Shown here: piece by piece, positions 30,554 through 55,876 of the stretch
Numbering within the stretch: position 1 is the stretch's first letter
How the letters are laid out: every line of letters begins with the position of its first letter
Assembly: GCF_031200575.1 (NCBI RefSeq)
Contig: NZ_CP133597.1
Coordinates: 744,001 to 808,000, forward strand
Length of the DNA stretch: 64,000 nt
Origin: Ferroplasma sp.
GTDB taxonomy: Archaea; Thermoplasmatota; Thermoplasmata; Thermoplasmatales; Thermoplasmataceae
Reading direction: 5' to 3'
Program-made: the position numbers and the translations under genes
Notes under the pieces: generated by a model
What the model was told of the DNA's origin: nothing
Databases searched by the model: none
The model's input: only the letters and a program-made list of their open reading frames with translations

Positions 30554-31522
30554 ATGAGAGAGGAATACAGTTACGGAATTGTGGTCATATCAAATTTTCA
30601 TGGTGACTATAAATATCTGCTTCTGAAAAGGGCCGAAGGATGGCTTGATTTTCCCAAGGGCCATATTGAGGAGGGGGAAACGGGCACTGCTGCTGCAATT
30701 AGGGAAACCAGGGAAGAGTCAGGAATAACAATTGATGAAAAGCACCTGATACCATACTTTCATTATGATATAACGTACAGGTTCACATATAATTCTGTAA
30801 AAATACTCAAGCATGTCAGGATGTTCATGTCTCTGGTGCCTGACAGCACTGTTGTGAAGGTATCAAACGAGCATAGGGGGTATATCTGGCTTAACTATCA
30901 TGAGGCCATGGAAAATCTTAACTTCGGAAACCAGAAGGACCTTATGCAGTATGCAGATTCATATTTAAAAAAATACCTCGCCATGGAGGCATTAAATTCG
31001 GAATACAGAAATATTCCGGGGAAAAGTAAATGGAATTTAAGCTCTAATTTTGTTCCAGGTGAAGGAAACCTAAATTCAAAGATATTCTTTGTTGGTCAGG
31101 CACCGGGAAGGAACGAGGACAGTGAAAAAAGACCCTTTGTTGGAAGAAGCGGGAAACTTCTGGATAGCCTGATACATGGAATTGGCCTTAACAGAGAAGA
31201 CGTTTACATTACAAGTGTGGTGCAGTTTTTCCCGCCGGATAACCGGGCACCCACAGAGGATGAAGTGGCCATATGCATGCCATTCCTGGAAAAGCAGTTA
31301 GACATAGTGAATCCACAGATCGTTGTACTCTTAGGCGCAACAGCAGCAGGTGTACTTCTAAATTTAAAGGGCATTACCGCATATCACGGGAAAATAATTA
31401 AAAATAAATACCTTATCACGGTTCATCCTGCAGCTGCCCTCAGGAATCCAGCCAACCTTGAGATTATGAAATCTGATTTTAAGGCGCTTCAAGAATTTCT
31501 CAAATCACATGGGAGCCCTTAG
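30554..31522 (+). CDS. Nudix hydrolase fused to a family 4-like uracil-DNA glycosylase
   Basis: Two-domain protein of 322 residues. Residues ~1-135 are a Nudix domain with a perfect box, GHIEEGETGTAAAIRE then TREESGI (Gx5Ex7REx2EExG), of the Ap4A/nucleotide-hydrolase type. Residues ~150-320 are a UDG: FFVGQAPGRNEDSEKRPFVG, VYITSVVQFFPPDNRAPT and the active-site-side TVHPAAALRNP. Family 4 enzymes ligate a [4Fe-4S] cluster with four cysteines. Here only the one in EVAICMPFL remains; the first pair is absent and the third is Phe. ATG 30554 is preferred to TTG 30539 because TTTTTATATATG near 30524-30535 gives a leaderless start. It could remove uracil and clean the nucleotide pool together. Confidence 0.88.
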   Translation: MREEYSYGIVVISNFHGDYKYLLLKRAEGWLDFPKGHIEEGETGTAAAIRETREESGITIDEKHLIPYFHYDITYRFTYNSVKILKHVRMFMSLVPDSTVVKVSNEHRGYIWLNYHEAMENLNFGNQKDLMQYADSYLKKYLAMEALNSEYRNIPGKSKWNLSSNFVPGEGNLNSKIFFVGQAPGRNEDSEKRPFVGRSGKLLDSLIHGIGLNREDVYITSVVQFFPPDNRAPTEDEVAICMPFLEKQLDIVNPQIVVLLGATAAGVLLNLKGITAYHGKIIKNKYLITVHPAAALRNPANLEIMKSDFKALQEFLKSHGSP

Positions 31523-32138
31523 TTTCACGGCCGTACAGTAAGTACAGCACACCACCGGCAAATCCAGCGATATAAACTATAAGAATAAACCAGGCGTATA
31601 GATTGATGGTGGCATTGGCCAGGATAAATATAAATGCAATATACAGGGTGTAACCTGTGAGCCGAACACCCCCAACACCCCTCCCCCTATACCGGCTGGT
31701 AAAATTCTCCGGTTCAAGAAGTTCCCGGGATGCCCATGCAATTTCCCCGAACACTGAGCTGATTGCAAGCATGGCCAGTAATAGGTACAGGTTATATATT
31801 ACGTAATTAAAGAACAATAAAAGCACCAACCATGATCCAAGAAGACCGGAAAATCCTATCATAGATACAGCCTTCCTGCCTGATCTCCCAATAGTAAAAC
31901 CACCCACCACGCCTGTAATTGATTCGGCAAGCACAGAAAAAAATATAATAATATCCGTATATTCAGGAAAATGAAATGGCCCAAGCACCAGGTCTGAAAA
32001 TGCAAAGCCAACAATTATAGCTATCCCCATTAGGGACAGCGAAACAAATTTCATTGCATCATTGAGATTAAATTGTGCAGGAGCAATAGTTTTTCTATTT
32101 TCCCATAAATAGCTTTCCGTTCTTGAAATACTATGCAT
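31500..32138 (-). pseudogene. C-terminal half of a split MFS transporter (thiamine-type)
   Basis: The 212-residue frame has a hydrophilic start (HSISRTESYLWENRKTIAP) then six membrane helices. The Gly-rich VVGGFTIGRSGRKA loop corresponds to the helix 8-9 motif of MFS proteins. It has no promoter of its own that I can recognise and lies exactly downstream of the N-terminal six-helix half on the same strand, with a mobile-element remnant in between. Together the halves make a normal ~415-residue, 12-helix transporter. Its own ATG (32138) lies in the element's terminal repeat, so it could still be translated separately. Ends 3' by overlapping the convergent Nudix-UDG gene by 23 bp. Confidence 0.75.
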
Positions 32139-32400
32139 TATTATGCATTTCTTTCTTGCAGTCGCTGTACATTCTCAACAACTACCTGATCTGGATGGTA
32201 CAGGTAATCATTCTTCATGGAATGCCAGAAGGCACTGCCACTCACGGCAAACGGGGTGCCGCAAAGATATAATCCCCTAATGGAGATAGATAATGATGAT
32301 AACCTATCCCTGTTAAAGGCTATACGCATCTATCTGCAATATATCGCATGCTTCCCTGATTGTGTATATCTTGCCCATATATATTGCATAATGATGCATA
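32132..32400 (-). mobile_element. ~270-bp internally deleted IS607-like element inserted in the transporter gene
   Basis: A 16-bp inverted repeat, TATGCATyATTATGCA, lies at both ends (32132-32147 and, inverted, 32385-32400; one mismatch). Just inside the upstream end an ATG (32378) opens a 21-codon peptide MGKIYTIREACDILQIDAYS, which looks like the MerR-type helix-turn-helix start of IS607 TnpA resolvases, then stops. A second frame (32141-32329) ending LYHPDQVVVENVQRLQERNA reaches the other end and may be the tail of the element's second gene. No transposase core remains, so it is non-autonomous. The IS607 assignment rests on a short motif; the insertion itself is well supported. Confidence 0.65.
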
Positions 32401-32401
32401 A

Positions 32402-33031
32402 TTATATATAAATATTCCTATTAGCAGTTAAAGCCCTCATTCTGTACCTTGCAAGCAGGGATACTGATCCACCTATCATTGCAATGCAAACCAGTGCAGT
32501 TTTCTGGACAAAAATAGAACCGGAAAGTAATAAAAAGATACCTGCCATCAATGTTATTCCTATGTTAGCCATATTGGATGACTCAACTATTGCGGCACCC
32601 CTGTACCTAGATGGAAAATATTCAGACATCAATGAAAGAGACACAGTTTCATCACCGCCAAGCCCAAATTCAGCTATAAACACAAAAGCTATCAGGGCAA
32701 TATAATTATAGCTAAAACCTATGCCGGCAAGCCCGGCCACAGTCATAAACATCGTTACCAGATAGCTTCTTTTCCTCCCAGTTTTATCAGATATTATTCC
32801 CATAACAAAGTTTCCTGTCAGAAGTCCTGCAGGTGCTGCGCCTATAATAGGATAATATGCATAGGCTGGAACGAAATACCATGTTGTTATAAGCGGTGCT
32901 ATGCTTAGGGCCACTCCCCACATCAAAAATGATACAGATACGGTAAAAAAAATTAGCCAGTGCCGGCCATTCCAAGGTGATGTTGCTATACTCTGTGCAA
33001 TTTTCCTGTTATTTTCCAGATCATATTCCAT
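32402..33031 (-). pseudogene. N-terminal half of a split MFS transporter under TPP riboswitch control (putative thiamine transporter)
   Basis: The 209-residue frame starts MEYDLENNRKIAQSI and has six membrane helices. The MFS loop signature is GIISDKTGRKRSYLVT between helices 2 and 3, and an acidic helix-4 segment FIAEFGLGGDETVS follows. It ends soon after helix 6 (LLARYRMRALTANRN) where the mobile element begins. The upstream TPP riboswitch, overlapping its ribosome-binding site, points to uptake of thiamine or a precursor. Thermoplasma homologues with such an element have been proposed as thiamine transporters. The break falls in the central cytoplasmic loop, so two half-proteins might still assemble. 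Confidence 0.75.
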
Positions 33032-33035
33032 TTTC

Positions 33036-33110
33036 TCCCTCCGCCGGCATTGCCCGGATCAGGTTCATGGGGTCGATCCCTATCCTCTCAGCCCTGAGCT
33101 CCCCCTATAA
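33036..33110 (-). promoter_or_regulatory. TPP riboswitch (THI element)
   Basis: Read on the minus strand, the element has the conserved cores in order: GGGGGAGC, GGCTGAGAGGA (pyrimidine-sensing loop), GACCC, then GAACCTGATCCGG and GCAATGCCGGCGGAGGGA (pyrophosphate-sensing arm). It ends only 4 nt before the transporter ATG (33031). Its last bases, GGAGGGAG, are also the ribosome-binding site, so ligand binding probably blocks translation initiation. A TTAAATAA box at about 33140 would start transcription just upstream of it. Confidence 0.93.
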
Positions 33111-33174
33111 CAATTCAAAGATTGCCACAGATTATTTAATAATTGTGCCCTGTCACATGGTTTTCAATATGTGC

Positions 33175-53436: not shown

Positions 53437-54063
53437 TTATTTTCCAATTATCCCATGTTCTCTCAATTTTTCCAGATAGTATGATACCTCTCCTTCAATA
53501 TCTGTGCCTGAATAAATTGCTGAAACCACTGCAATTCCAGAGATTTTATACTTCAGGACCTCATCCACATTTCCCCTGTTTATTCCTCCTATTACAAATA
53601 CAGGTATGTTAATATTATTCAGTTTATCAAGGATACCTATATCGCACATGGTGGCATTACTTTTTGTTTTTGTACTGAAAAAAGAACCGAATGCGACGTA
53701 ATCAGCGCCAAGTTCCTGGAATTTAACTGCATCTTCAGGGCTCCCATATGTGGATACCCCTATTATTTTTTCAGGATATCTTGATTTCACATAATCAAAG
53801 GGAACATCATCCTTTCCAATATGGATTCCGTCAGCACCAACTATATCCATCAGAACAGGGTCGTCATCAACAATAAATGGAATGCCGTATTCTCTGCACA
53901 TATACATAAATTTTTTCGCCCTTTCCATCTTCTTCCGGAACGAAGGTTCTTTATCCCGGTATTGCAGTATATTGACCCCGCTTTTCAGGGCTCTTTCTGT
54001 CGCCCTAAATACCTCAGTTCCTGTATATGGTGGTGTAACCAGGTATAAGCCCCCAAGTTTCAT
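53437..54063 (-). CDS. thiE: thiamine-phosphate synthase
   Basis: Joins HMP-PP and thiazole phosphate to thiamine phosphate. From ATG 54063 the protein has 208 residues with GLYLVTPPYTG, NILQYRDKEPSFRKKM (substrate-binding Gln and Arg), PFIVDDDPVLMDIVGADGIH then IGKDDVPFDY (Mg-binding Asp residues), GVSTYGSPEDA, DYVAFGSFFSTKTK and FVIGGINRGNV. The frame runs to 54102, but ATG 54063 overlaps the upstream stop by 4 bp and is the sensible start. Third gene of thiD-AIRS-thiE. Confidence 0.93.
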   Translation of the reverse strand: MKLGGLYLVTPPYTGTEVFRATERALKSGVNILQYRDKEPSFRKKMERAKKFMYMCREYGIPFIVDDDPVLMDIVGADGIHIGKDDVPFDYVKSRYPEKIIGVSTYGSPEDAVKFQELGADYVAFGSFFSTKTKSNATMCDIGILDKLNNINIPVFVIGGINRGNVDEVLKYKISGIAVVSAIYSGTDIEGEVSYYLEKLREHGIIGK

Positions 54064-55091
54064 TTCAATCCTCTCTTCACGCCACCGGAAACAGCACCCC
54101 ATAACTGGTCGTCCTCTGGGTTTATCACCGACTCCTTGCCATCCTTTATCAACTTCATTCCTCCTGTCTTGTCTGTTACCTCTCCTATTATGCTGGCATT
54201 GATCCCGCTCTTTTTGAGCATTTCAGTAAATTCATTTCCATACTCCCGCTTAACAGTGAGCAGTAGTGTCCCCTCACTTATAGACCTCAGGGGATTTATA
54301 TTGAAAAGCGAGCAAACAGCCGCAATATCGCTATCAATAATGATGCTGTTATAATTTACCATGACTCCATTACCAGAGGCATAGCCGATTTCATAAACAG
54401 AATTCAGCAGGCCACCCTCTGTTGCATCGTGCATTGATGTTATCCTCTCACCTATGCCATAGTCTATGGCCATTAGCTCCTCAGGTACGCATGTCATAGT
54501 GTAAAATTTATCCTTGATAGCATTCAGTGTATTACTTCCCAGACTTTCCTTTATATACTCAGGAAATGTATATGCAAGTATAATTGAGGCCTCCAGGCCA
54601 CAGCTTCTTGCCATTATAATTACATCCCCTGGAGATGCATTTTCCGTGGTTATGTACCTGTCACCTACTCCCATCAGAGTAACACCACCGACCATGGGAA
54701 ATGATACACCTGCGTATCTTGCAGTATGGCCGGTAACCACCTCAATCCCGTATTTTTCGCATTCTCCATGAATCACATTCCATATCTCGTTGAACTGTTC
54801 ATCGGTAATTTCCTGGGGGAGGTTCAGGTCAATACTCATATAGCTGGCCTTAATGCCCGACGTAAAAAGGTCAGATGCAAGTATGTGAAATGCAAACCAC
54901 GCTGCTTTTTTAAACCCGAAAGACCGGTCAATGTAAAGCGGGTCTGTGGTTACTGCCATATAGCTGCCATTAATTGCTATAATACCAACATCAACCCCAT
55001 TGCGTGGTGGTACGGCAACATCTTTCCTGACAGCTCCAATCCTATTTATTATGTTGTCCTCAAAAAATTTCCTTGATATTTTCCCTATCAT
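54060..55091 (-). CDS. AIR synthase/HypE/ThiL-fold protein of unknown substrate
   Basis: The 343-residue protein belongs to the PurM/ThiL/HypE/SelD superfamily. It shows VTTDPLYIDRSFGFKKAAWF then ILASDLFTSGIKASYMSIDL (metal-binding Asp/Asn positions), GIEVVTGHTARY, and the C-terminal Mg-ATP segment SMHDATEGGLLNSVYEIGYA then LRSISEGTLLLTV. It is distinct from the ThiL at 0.7 kb. Position between thiD and thiE, with 4-bp overlaps on both sides, suggests a thiamine-related ATP-dependent step or salvage kinase, but no substrate can be named. Confidence 0.72.
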   Translation of the reverse strand: MIGKISRKFFEDNIINRIGAVRKDVAVPPRNGVDVGIIAINGSYMAVTTDPLYIDRSFGFKKAAWFAFHILASDLFTSGIKASYMSIDLNLPQEITDEQFNEIWNVIHGECEKYGIEVVTGHTARYAGVSFPMVGGVTLMGVGDRYITTENASPGDVIIMARSCGLEASIILAYTFPEYIKESLGSNTLNAIKDKFYTMTCVPEELMAIDYGIGERITSMHDATEGGLLNSVYEIGYASGNGVMVNYNSIIIDSDIAAVCSLFNINPLRSISEGTLLLTVKREYGNEFTEMLKKSGINASIIGEVTDKTGGMKLIKDGKESVINPEDDQLWGAVSGGVKRGLK

Positions 55092-55876
55092 TTTATCGCC
55101 CAGAAATGTGAAAGAGATCCATATCCCTTACCCATGGGAAATGAATTCTTTATTGCCCCTTCAATATATTTCCTTGCCAGTGAAATTGCCTGTTGCAGGT
55201 TCATCCCTGATGCCAGGTAGGACGCAATAGATGCAGACAGGGTATCACCTGTTCCATGTGTATTCCTGGTATCAATCCTTGCACCGGGGAATTCACTGTA
55301 CTCACTCCCATCGTAAAGTATATCAGTGGATATATCCCCATGGGAATGGCCTCCCTTGACCAGAACCGAGGCGCCTGTCATTTCATATATCCTCTTTGCC
55401 GCAATCCTGGCATCACCTATGGAATGTATTTTAATAGATGAAATGACCTCGCTTTCCGGTATGTTTGGTGTGACCAGTGTTGCAATTTTCATTAATTTAT
55501 TTACCATAGATGAAACTGCATCCTCTTTCAATAATCTTGCATTGGTTTTGGAAATCATTACAGGGTCCACAACAATATTAGTTACATTATACTGCTGAAA
55601 CTTTTCTGTTACTGCAGATATTATTTCCTCTGAATATAGCATACCTGTCTTTGCAGAATCAGTACCAATATCATCCATTATTGCATCGAACTGGTCATTA
55701 ATGAAGGACACTGGGAGTTCATAAATAGATTTTACTGTAACGCTGTTCTGTGCTGTGAGTGAAACTATAACTGCGGTTCCAAAAACCTTCATTGCCGTAA
55801 AAGTTTTTAGATCTGCCATAACACCAGCACCGCCACCGGAATCCGTGGATGCAACGGTCATAACTCTTGGAACCAT
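55088..55876 (-). CDS. thiD: hydroxymethylpyrimidine/phosphomethylpyrimidine kinase
   Basis: Phosphorylates HMP and then HMP-P for thiamine synthesis. The 262-residue ribokinase-fold protein starts RVMTVASTDSGGGAGVMADL then KTFTAMKVFGTAVIVSLTAQ. It has VDPVMISKTNARLLKEDAV, TPNIPESEVI, VLVKGGHSHGD and the catalytic NTHGTGDTLSASIASYLASG. First gene of thiD-AIRS-thiE. It is divergent from the GT2 gene. No riboswitch was seen upstream of it. Confidence 0.95.
   Translation of the reverse strand: MVPRVMTVASTDSGGGAGVMADLKTFTAMKVFGTAVIVSLTAQNSVTVKSIYELPVSFINDQFDAIMDDIGTDSAKTGMLYSEEIISAVTEKFQQYNVTNIVVDPVMISKTNARLLKEDAVSSMVNKLMKIATLVTPNIPESEVISSIKIHSIGDARIAAKRIYEMTGASVLVKGGHSHGDISTDILYDGSEYSEFPGARIDTRNTHGTGDTLSASIASYLASGMNLQQAISLARKYIEGAIKNSFPMGKGYGSLSHFWAIK

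Follow-up and report, generated by a model that had tools for sequence, protein, structure and literature searches.

A probably recent IS607-family insertion splits, and likely inactivated, one of two TPP-riboswitch-controlled MFS genes in Ferroplasma sp.

An MFS transporter gene behind a TPP riboswitch in Ferroplasma sp. is interrupted by a shortened IS607-family insertion sequence, which leaves two open half frames on either side of the element. Our preferred reading, to which we assign a probability of roughly 0.7, is that a recent IS607 insertion, later shortened, killed the transporter, and that an intact paralogue covers uptake. The features of the locus are listed below, with coordinates of the 64-kb window, which is the whole stretch of DNA that was analysed.

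33019..33115, minus strand: TPP riboswitch aptamer (Rfam RF00059; compared with the related genomes G006 and G003); its 3´ part holds the ribosome-binding-site-like GGAGGGA right before the N-half ATG
32402..33031, minus strand: N-half of the MFS transporter, an open frame of 209 aa with helices 1-6; codons 33031-32435 are native and the last 10 residues (ALTANRNIYI) element-encoded
32434..32438, minus strand: left flank GAGGG, of which the crossover GG is part; identical in sequence to a target-adjacent motif reported for IS607 TnpB
32117..32435, minus strand: IS607-family element with an internal deletion of ~1.6 kb and GG at each end, recognised by matches to the two ends of full copies
32405..32412, minus strand: TTTATATA, TATA-box-like and kept from the element, 26 bp upstream of the tnpA ATG at 32378; putative promoter
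32313..32378, minus strand: tnpA stub frame, 21 aa, truncated by the deletion
32325..32326, minus strand: deletion junction, tnpA codons to tnpB 3´ end, from comparison with full copies
32141..32329, minus strand: tnpB tail frame, 62 aa, whose TAA ends 2 bp before the C-half ATG
32117..32266, minus strand: RNA module of the right end (reRNA/omegaRNA-like); structured, and with third codon positions conserved across the aligned copies
31500..32138, minus strand: C-half of the MFS transporter, an open frame of 212 aa with helices 7-12; the first 7 residues (MHSISRT) are element-encoded

The TPP riboswitch is the sole Rfam match at the gathering threshold within the window (61.2 bits; gathering score 54.3), and it leads into GGAGGGAGAAAATG, the start of the N-half frame. 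The N-half matches PF07690 (MFS_1) with 42.3 bits against a cut-off of 33.4, and the two matches together bear out the proposal of an earlier note that this is a TPP-riboswitch-controlled MFS gene. No Pfam match was found for the C-half alone at E<=0.001; this half is 86% identical to the C-half of the intact gene in G006, whose whole protein scores 54.8 on MFS_1. Both frames are open, as had been read from the sequence, and are separated by 263 bp; jointly they align end to end with the contiguous gene of the relatives. The AlphaFold2 model of the N-half (mean pLDDT 74) contains six long helices and a short N-terminal one, in agreement with the six helices claimed for it. The C-half model also contains six long helices; it is poor (pLDDT 45) and was used for the helix count only, and simple hydropathy gives only five peaks per half, so the six helices of the C-half rest mainly on the alignment with relatives. 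A fold search with the N-half model returned nothing but generic MFS structures, namely SV2A and phosphate and sugar transporters of plants, and a sequence search of solved structures was likewise generic, with no pointer to a substrate from either. The neighbour on the convergent side is a NUDIX-UDG fusion gene; the upstream neighbours are a protein that matches the VIT family below threshold and a DUF211 protein.

The mobile-element remnant that the earlier note placed between the halves is real, and it is wider than the 32139-32401 gap given there. Its ends are 94-97% identical to those of complete copies in the same genome, over 104-116 bp at one end and 209-216 bp at the other, with the middle missing, and set its extent at 32117-32435; the final 10 residues of the N-half and the initial 7 residues of the C-half are therefore element-encoded. 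Three full copies of ~1.94 kb, 94-98% mutually identical, lie near C1:1155639, 1279133 and 1140543, each with open tnpA and tnpB frames. TnpA of the copy that was scanned (L045) is a 201-aa protein with a MerR-type domain (PF00376/PF12728) and a Resolvase domain (PF00239), and the full-copy TnpB downstream is a 425-aa protein with a Cas12f1-like TNB domain (PF07282), an architecture that identifies the IS607 family. In the window, tnpA is cut about 25 codons after its first ATG, with at most 28 codons left, and only the tail of tnpB is kept. The element thus resembles published IS607 insertion sequences in its GG crossover, its AG-rich left flank, the TnpA and TnpB of its full copies, and in needing neither inverted repeats nor a target duplication; it differs in that the window copy has kept no more than its ends, the right-end RNA module and the region of the tnpA promoter.

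GG stands at both junctions of the three full copies, without any longer target duplication, and GG is given as the crossover site of published IS607 elements in two papers (PMC10711439; PMC4058570). Across the left ends, GG occupies positions -1 and -2 in 14 of 14; 12 of them have G at -3, and 11 have A at -4. The count omits copy G006c, whose contig begins inside the element. A left boundary of GGG was rejected, since the third G is absent from two of the 14 left ends and GG alone fits the spacing of the relatives. The right ends of the three full copies finish with AAGAACGG; some decayed copies elsewhere lack that ending. The native codons read ...AGA ATG AGG at the left junction and GAA AGC TAT... 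at the right one, with R-I-K-E-S as the counterpart in G006. Alignment with intact relatives, the check proposed in the earlier note, located the insertion point at R-M-R / E-S-Y-L-W, where helix 6 ends and the conserved ES..W motif directly follows, rather than midway along the central loop, which corrects the position given in that note. The suggestion that the element end supplies the C-half ATG holds: this ATG at 32138 is part of the element and lies 21 bp upstream of the first native codon.

No other genome examined shares the split, as the relatives carry contiguous frames. A search of 61 genomes with the C-half gave a match in 42. A close orthologue occurs in eight of the nine other genomes of the genus (G001-G007 and G009), 53-86% identical over the matched part and encoded by a single frame of 405-424 aa; the ninth, G008 (84% complete), has a 32% match only. 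Joined, the halves are 88% identical to the gene of G006 (contig JAJZXS010000035.1) and 84% identical to that of G003 (JAKADL010000045.1). A conserved two-gene split of the transporter gene was not found among these nine genomes, so the halves are not normally separate genes in close relatives. Two other MFS loci were encountered in the comparison. In G006 (C18, 4985 bp; L060), a full-length IS607 copy lies inside a different, decayed MFS pseudogene, for which L098 and L099 were considered as the intact counterpart and dropped as wrong. Another genus of the family (G032:C1:1433400-1436300; L142) has an MFS gene that appears as a 238-aa N-part and a 174-aa C-part.

On the preferred reading, the element would have entered the riboswitch-controlled gene at the end of helix 6 by a serine-recombinase crossover at GG, a mechanism that we infer from the IS607 family. 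About 1.6 kb, comprising most of tnpA and tnpB, would have been lost after (or before) the insertion. The riboswitch would still lead into a six-helix N-half with a 10-residue element tail, and a full-length C-half could start only at the element ATG. No ribosome-binding site, in the form of a GGAG- or GGTG-like site, is evident in the sequence before this ATG, which argues for loss of function. Recency is suggested by the remnant itself: set beside other copies (16 right ends and 14 left ends, all oriented), it has no base private to it, so little post-insertion change is visible. Against all three full copies of its own genome, the remnant has 7 differences in the 209 positions of the right end and 3 in the 110 of the left end. 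Six of the seven right-end differences fall within 25 bp of each other, with letters that occur in other copies, a pattern suggestive of recombination or of descent from another copy. In a FastTree tree, the terminal branch is ~0 for the left part and 0.036 for the right part; if the latter arose after the insertion, a dead gene should often carry lesions by now, which weighs against a recent loss.

The absence of any stop or frameshift in the halves can be read as a sign of function, but its weight depends on age. The probability that a dead 1.27-kb frame pair shows no stop or indel is 0.12-0.86 at 0.3-0.9% neutral divergence, according to the assumed indel rate, and 0.008-0.37 at 2% divergence (0.37 on stops alone, at most 0.03 with indels). 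Intact halves would thus carry little information if the insertion is young and would favour function if it is old. Because the remnant is little diverged, decay may have lacked time to show, and the two open frames do not count as evidence for function. Along the entire branch that followed the split from G006, dN/dS of the two halves is 0.096 (95% bootstrap 0.05-0.16), compared with 0.122 (0.07-0.22) on the sister branch; the five neighbouring genes pooled give 0.054 on the window's branch. Branch values are rough, since some neighbours have high or saturated dS (one pair gives 2.566, and for another dS is not computable). No sign of relaxed selection is apparent over the whole branch, a point against loss of function. 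The test cannot separate the time before the insertion from the time after it; it shows that the transporter gene was kept for most of the branch since the G006 split.

A second gene is present that would make such a loss bearable. Another TPP riboswitch, at C1:1343751 with 55.8 bits, is followed by an intact MFS gene of 412 aa, ~30% identical to the split one; we take this second gene to cover uptake. TPP-riboswitch-controlled MFS transporters of Thermoplasmatales are known in the literature as ThiT1 and ThiT2. The arrangement here is like theirs in the riboswitch and the MFS gene, and two TPP riboswitches (E<=0.001) occur in eight of ten genomes of the genus (the second scores 54.2 in G004 and G009, slightly below the cut-off; the two genomes with one riboswitch are 80% and 84% complete); it differs in that one of the two genes is interrupted. 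The literature searched yielded no directly relevant case of Thermoplasma or Ferroplasma thiamine-riboswitch transporters. The substrate of the split gene, judged solely from its riboswitch, is probably thiamine or a precursor. ThiC was not found in the Ferroplasma sp. genome by a search that was positive in 13 of 14 controls, and a Pfam Thi4 search gave nine mostly short matches and was also positive in all 14 controls. The following genes of the window belong to this context.

53437-54102: TMP-TENI gene, thiE-like
54060-55091: AIRS-family gene, between the thiE-like and thiD-like genes
55088-55876: phosphomethylpyrimidine kinase gene, thiD-like
663-1646: further AIRS-family gene; one of the two AIRS-family genes is perhaps thiL

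The missing ThiC and the thiE-, thiD- and thiL-like genes make a need for uptake of thiamine or its pyrimidine precursor plausible. The connection drawn in the earlier note between the split gene and the retention of these genes is weakened by the second, intact TPP-riboswitch MFS gene.

On balance, the evidence leans towards recent loss rather than a transporter of two chains, a reading that we consider unlikely though worth serious attention. Both halves would be made and assemble as N6 + C6. Translation of the C-half would begin at the element ATG and be coupled to the tnpB tail frame, either on the riboswitch transcript or on a transcript begun at the tnpA TATA box. The open frames and the low dN/dS would suit this arrangement, as would the retained TTTATATA and the TAATAATG geometry, in which the TAA of the tnpB tail lies two bases upstream of the C-half ATG. 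Split LacY is functional. In a published account (PMC7272624), each half of LacY and of XylE inserts on its own in vitro; the LacY halves are stable in vivo only together, when co-expressed. These artificially split proteins (N6 + C6) are likewise cut between the domains of helices 1-6 and 7-12, but expression of both parts was engineered there and translation of the C-half here is only putative. The lack of an evident ribosome-binding site speaks against two chains, as do the confinement of the split to one genome and the little-changed remnant, beside which intact frames are expected anyway. No directly relevant case of a natural split MFS gene was found in the literature searched.

Other damaged MFS genes bear on the same question. 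A search with Pfam MFS_1 across the genome returned 72 match rows, and those with short frames or stops were inspected. Five genes are damaged. In three of them, including the window gene, the break lies in the central loop and the two halves are open apart from it (helix and loop calls by eye). The gene at C1:1233041-1234435 (L120) has an in-frame TAA in the central loop, where the contiguous G005 orthologue reads on for 464 aa; that at C1:172119-173267 (L177) has a TAG in the loop just before helix 7, and its best match in each of the nine other genus genomes is free of a stop, with the G001 match only 47% identical. Two genes carry a stop in helix 1, near C1:374 kb (where the frame is also lost later) and at C1:980768. 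A sixth candidate near C1:153 kb proved intact. If the central loop makes up 10-12% of the length, three of five breaks there have a probability of about 0.009-0.014, a small count that includes a window chosen because of its break; two of four without the window gene have about 0.05-0.07. The excess is suggestive only, and the two further breaks in the same loop hint that such breaks may be tolerated, which favours two chains over loss of function.

A more speculative reading, and a rather improbable one, assigns the remnant a role of its own as a guide-only miniature IS607. With its GG ends, tnpA TATA box and intact right-end RNA module, it would carry the transporter C-half sequence as its guide; together with TnpB from the three full copies, it would cut uninterrupted alleles (GAGGG plus that sequence) and so hold or spread the split allele in a recombining population, where two-chain function of MFS halves in this archaeon may make the split tolerable. 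The kept right-end module and the GAGGG left flank are the reason for retaining this reading. In nine full or nearly full copies, the last full 90-nt block (tnpB nt 1171-1260) has a third-codon-position diversity of 0.07, down from 0.136-0.396 in the tnpB body, as expected if the tail doubles as guide RNA. In the right-end consensus structure, 98.3% of cells are paired, with weak covariation, as only 2 of 40 pairs change on both sides. The right end thus looks constrained at the RNA level as a predicted guide-RNA module. No Rfam match to an IS607 guide RNA was found in six loci, and the window gave the TPP riboswitch and two weak chance matches. Stand-alone TnpB/IscB guide RNAs are a known system, similar in that a right-end RNA module is kept without a nuclease gene; here the RNA is a predicted one. 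GAGGG is listed as the motif for four of 22 IS607 TnpB strains in PMC11061315, and PMC10278001 describes the TnpB guide as made from its own mRNA and TnpB as thought to maintain the element. IS607 fragments with only the right end and RNA module also occur in G003, G005 and G006 (e.g. G003:C91:8308-8568 and G006:C45:31114-31329).

A reversible switch, in which TnpA of the full copies excises the remnant at its GG ends to give the relatives' reading frame in a population of split and whole genes, is very unlikely: the GG ends and end sequences are kept, three open tnpA genes could act in trans and the frame and spacing fit G006, but the assembly holds the split form only. An assembly or sequencing artefact can practically be dismissed, for although repeats can misassemble and the locus was judged from the assembly, the gene is not contiguous in the assembly (99.33% complete), which spans the locus in a single 1.86 Mb contig with true IS607 ends at the junctions, and collapse of repeats is unlikely because the remnant is unlike the full copies in its internal deletion and in 10 positions differing from all three.

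If the halves are dead, as the preferred reading of recent loss holds, the locus would be an ordinary recent IS insertion seen before decay, and a case of transporter loss beside a retained paralogue. If they work, it would offer a natural test of two-chain MFS transporters behind one riboswitch, in a genome with two more breaks in the same loop. If the right-end RNA is active, the remnant would represent a nuclease-less IS607 derivative with a guide against the intact form of a host vitamin transporter.
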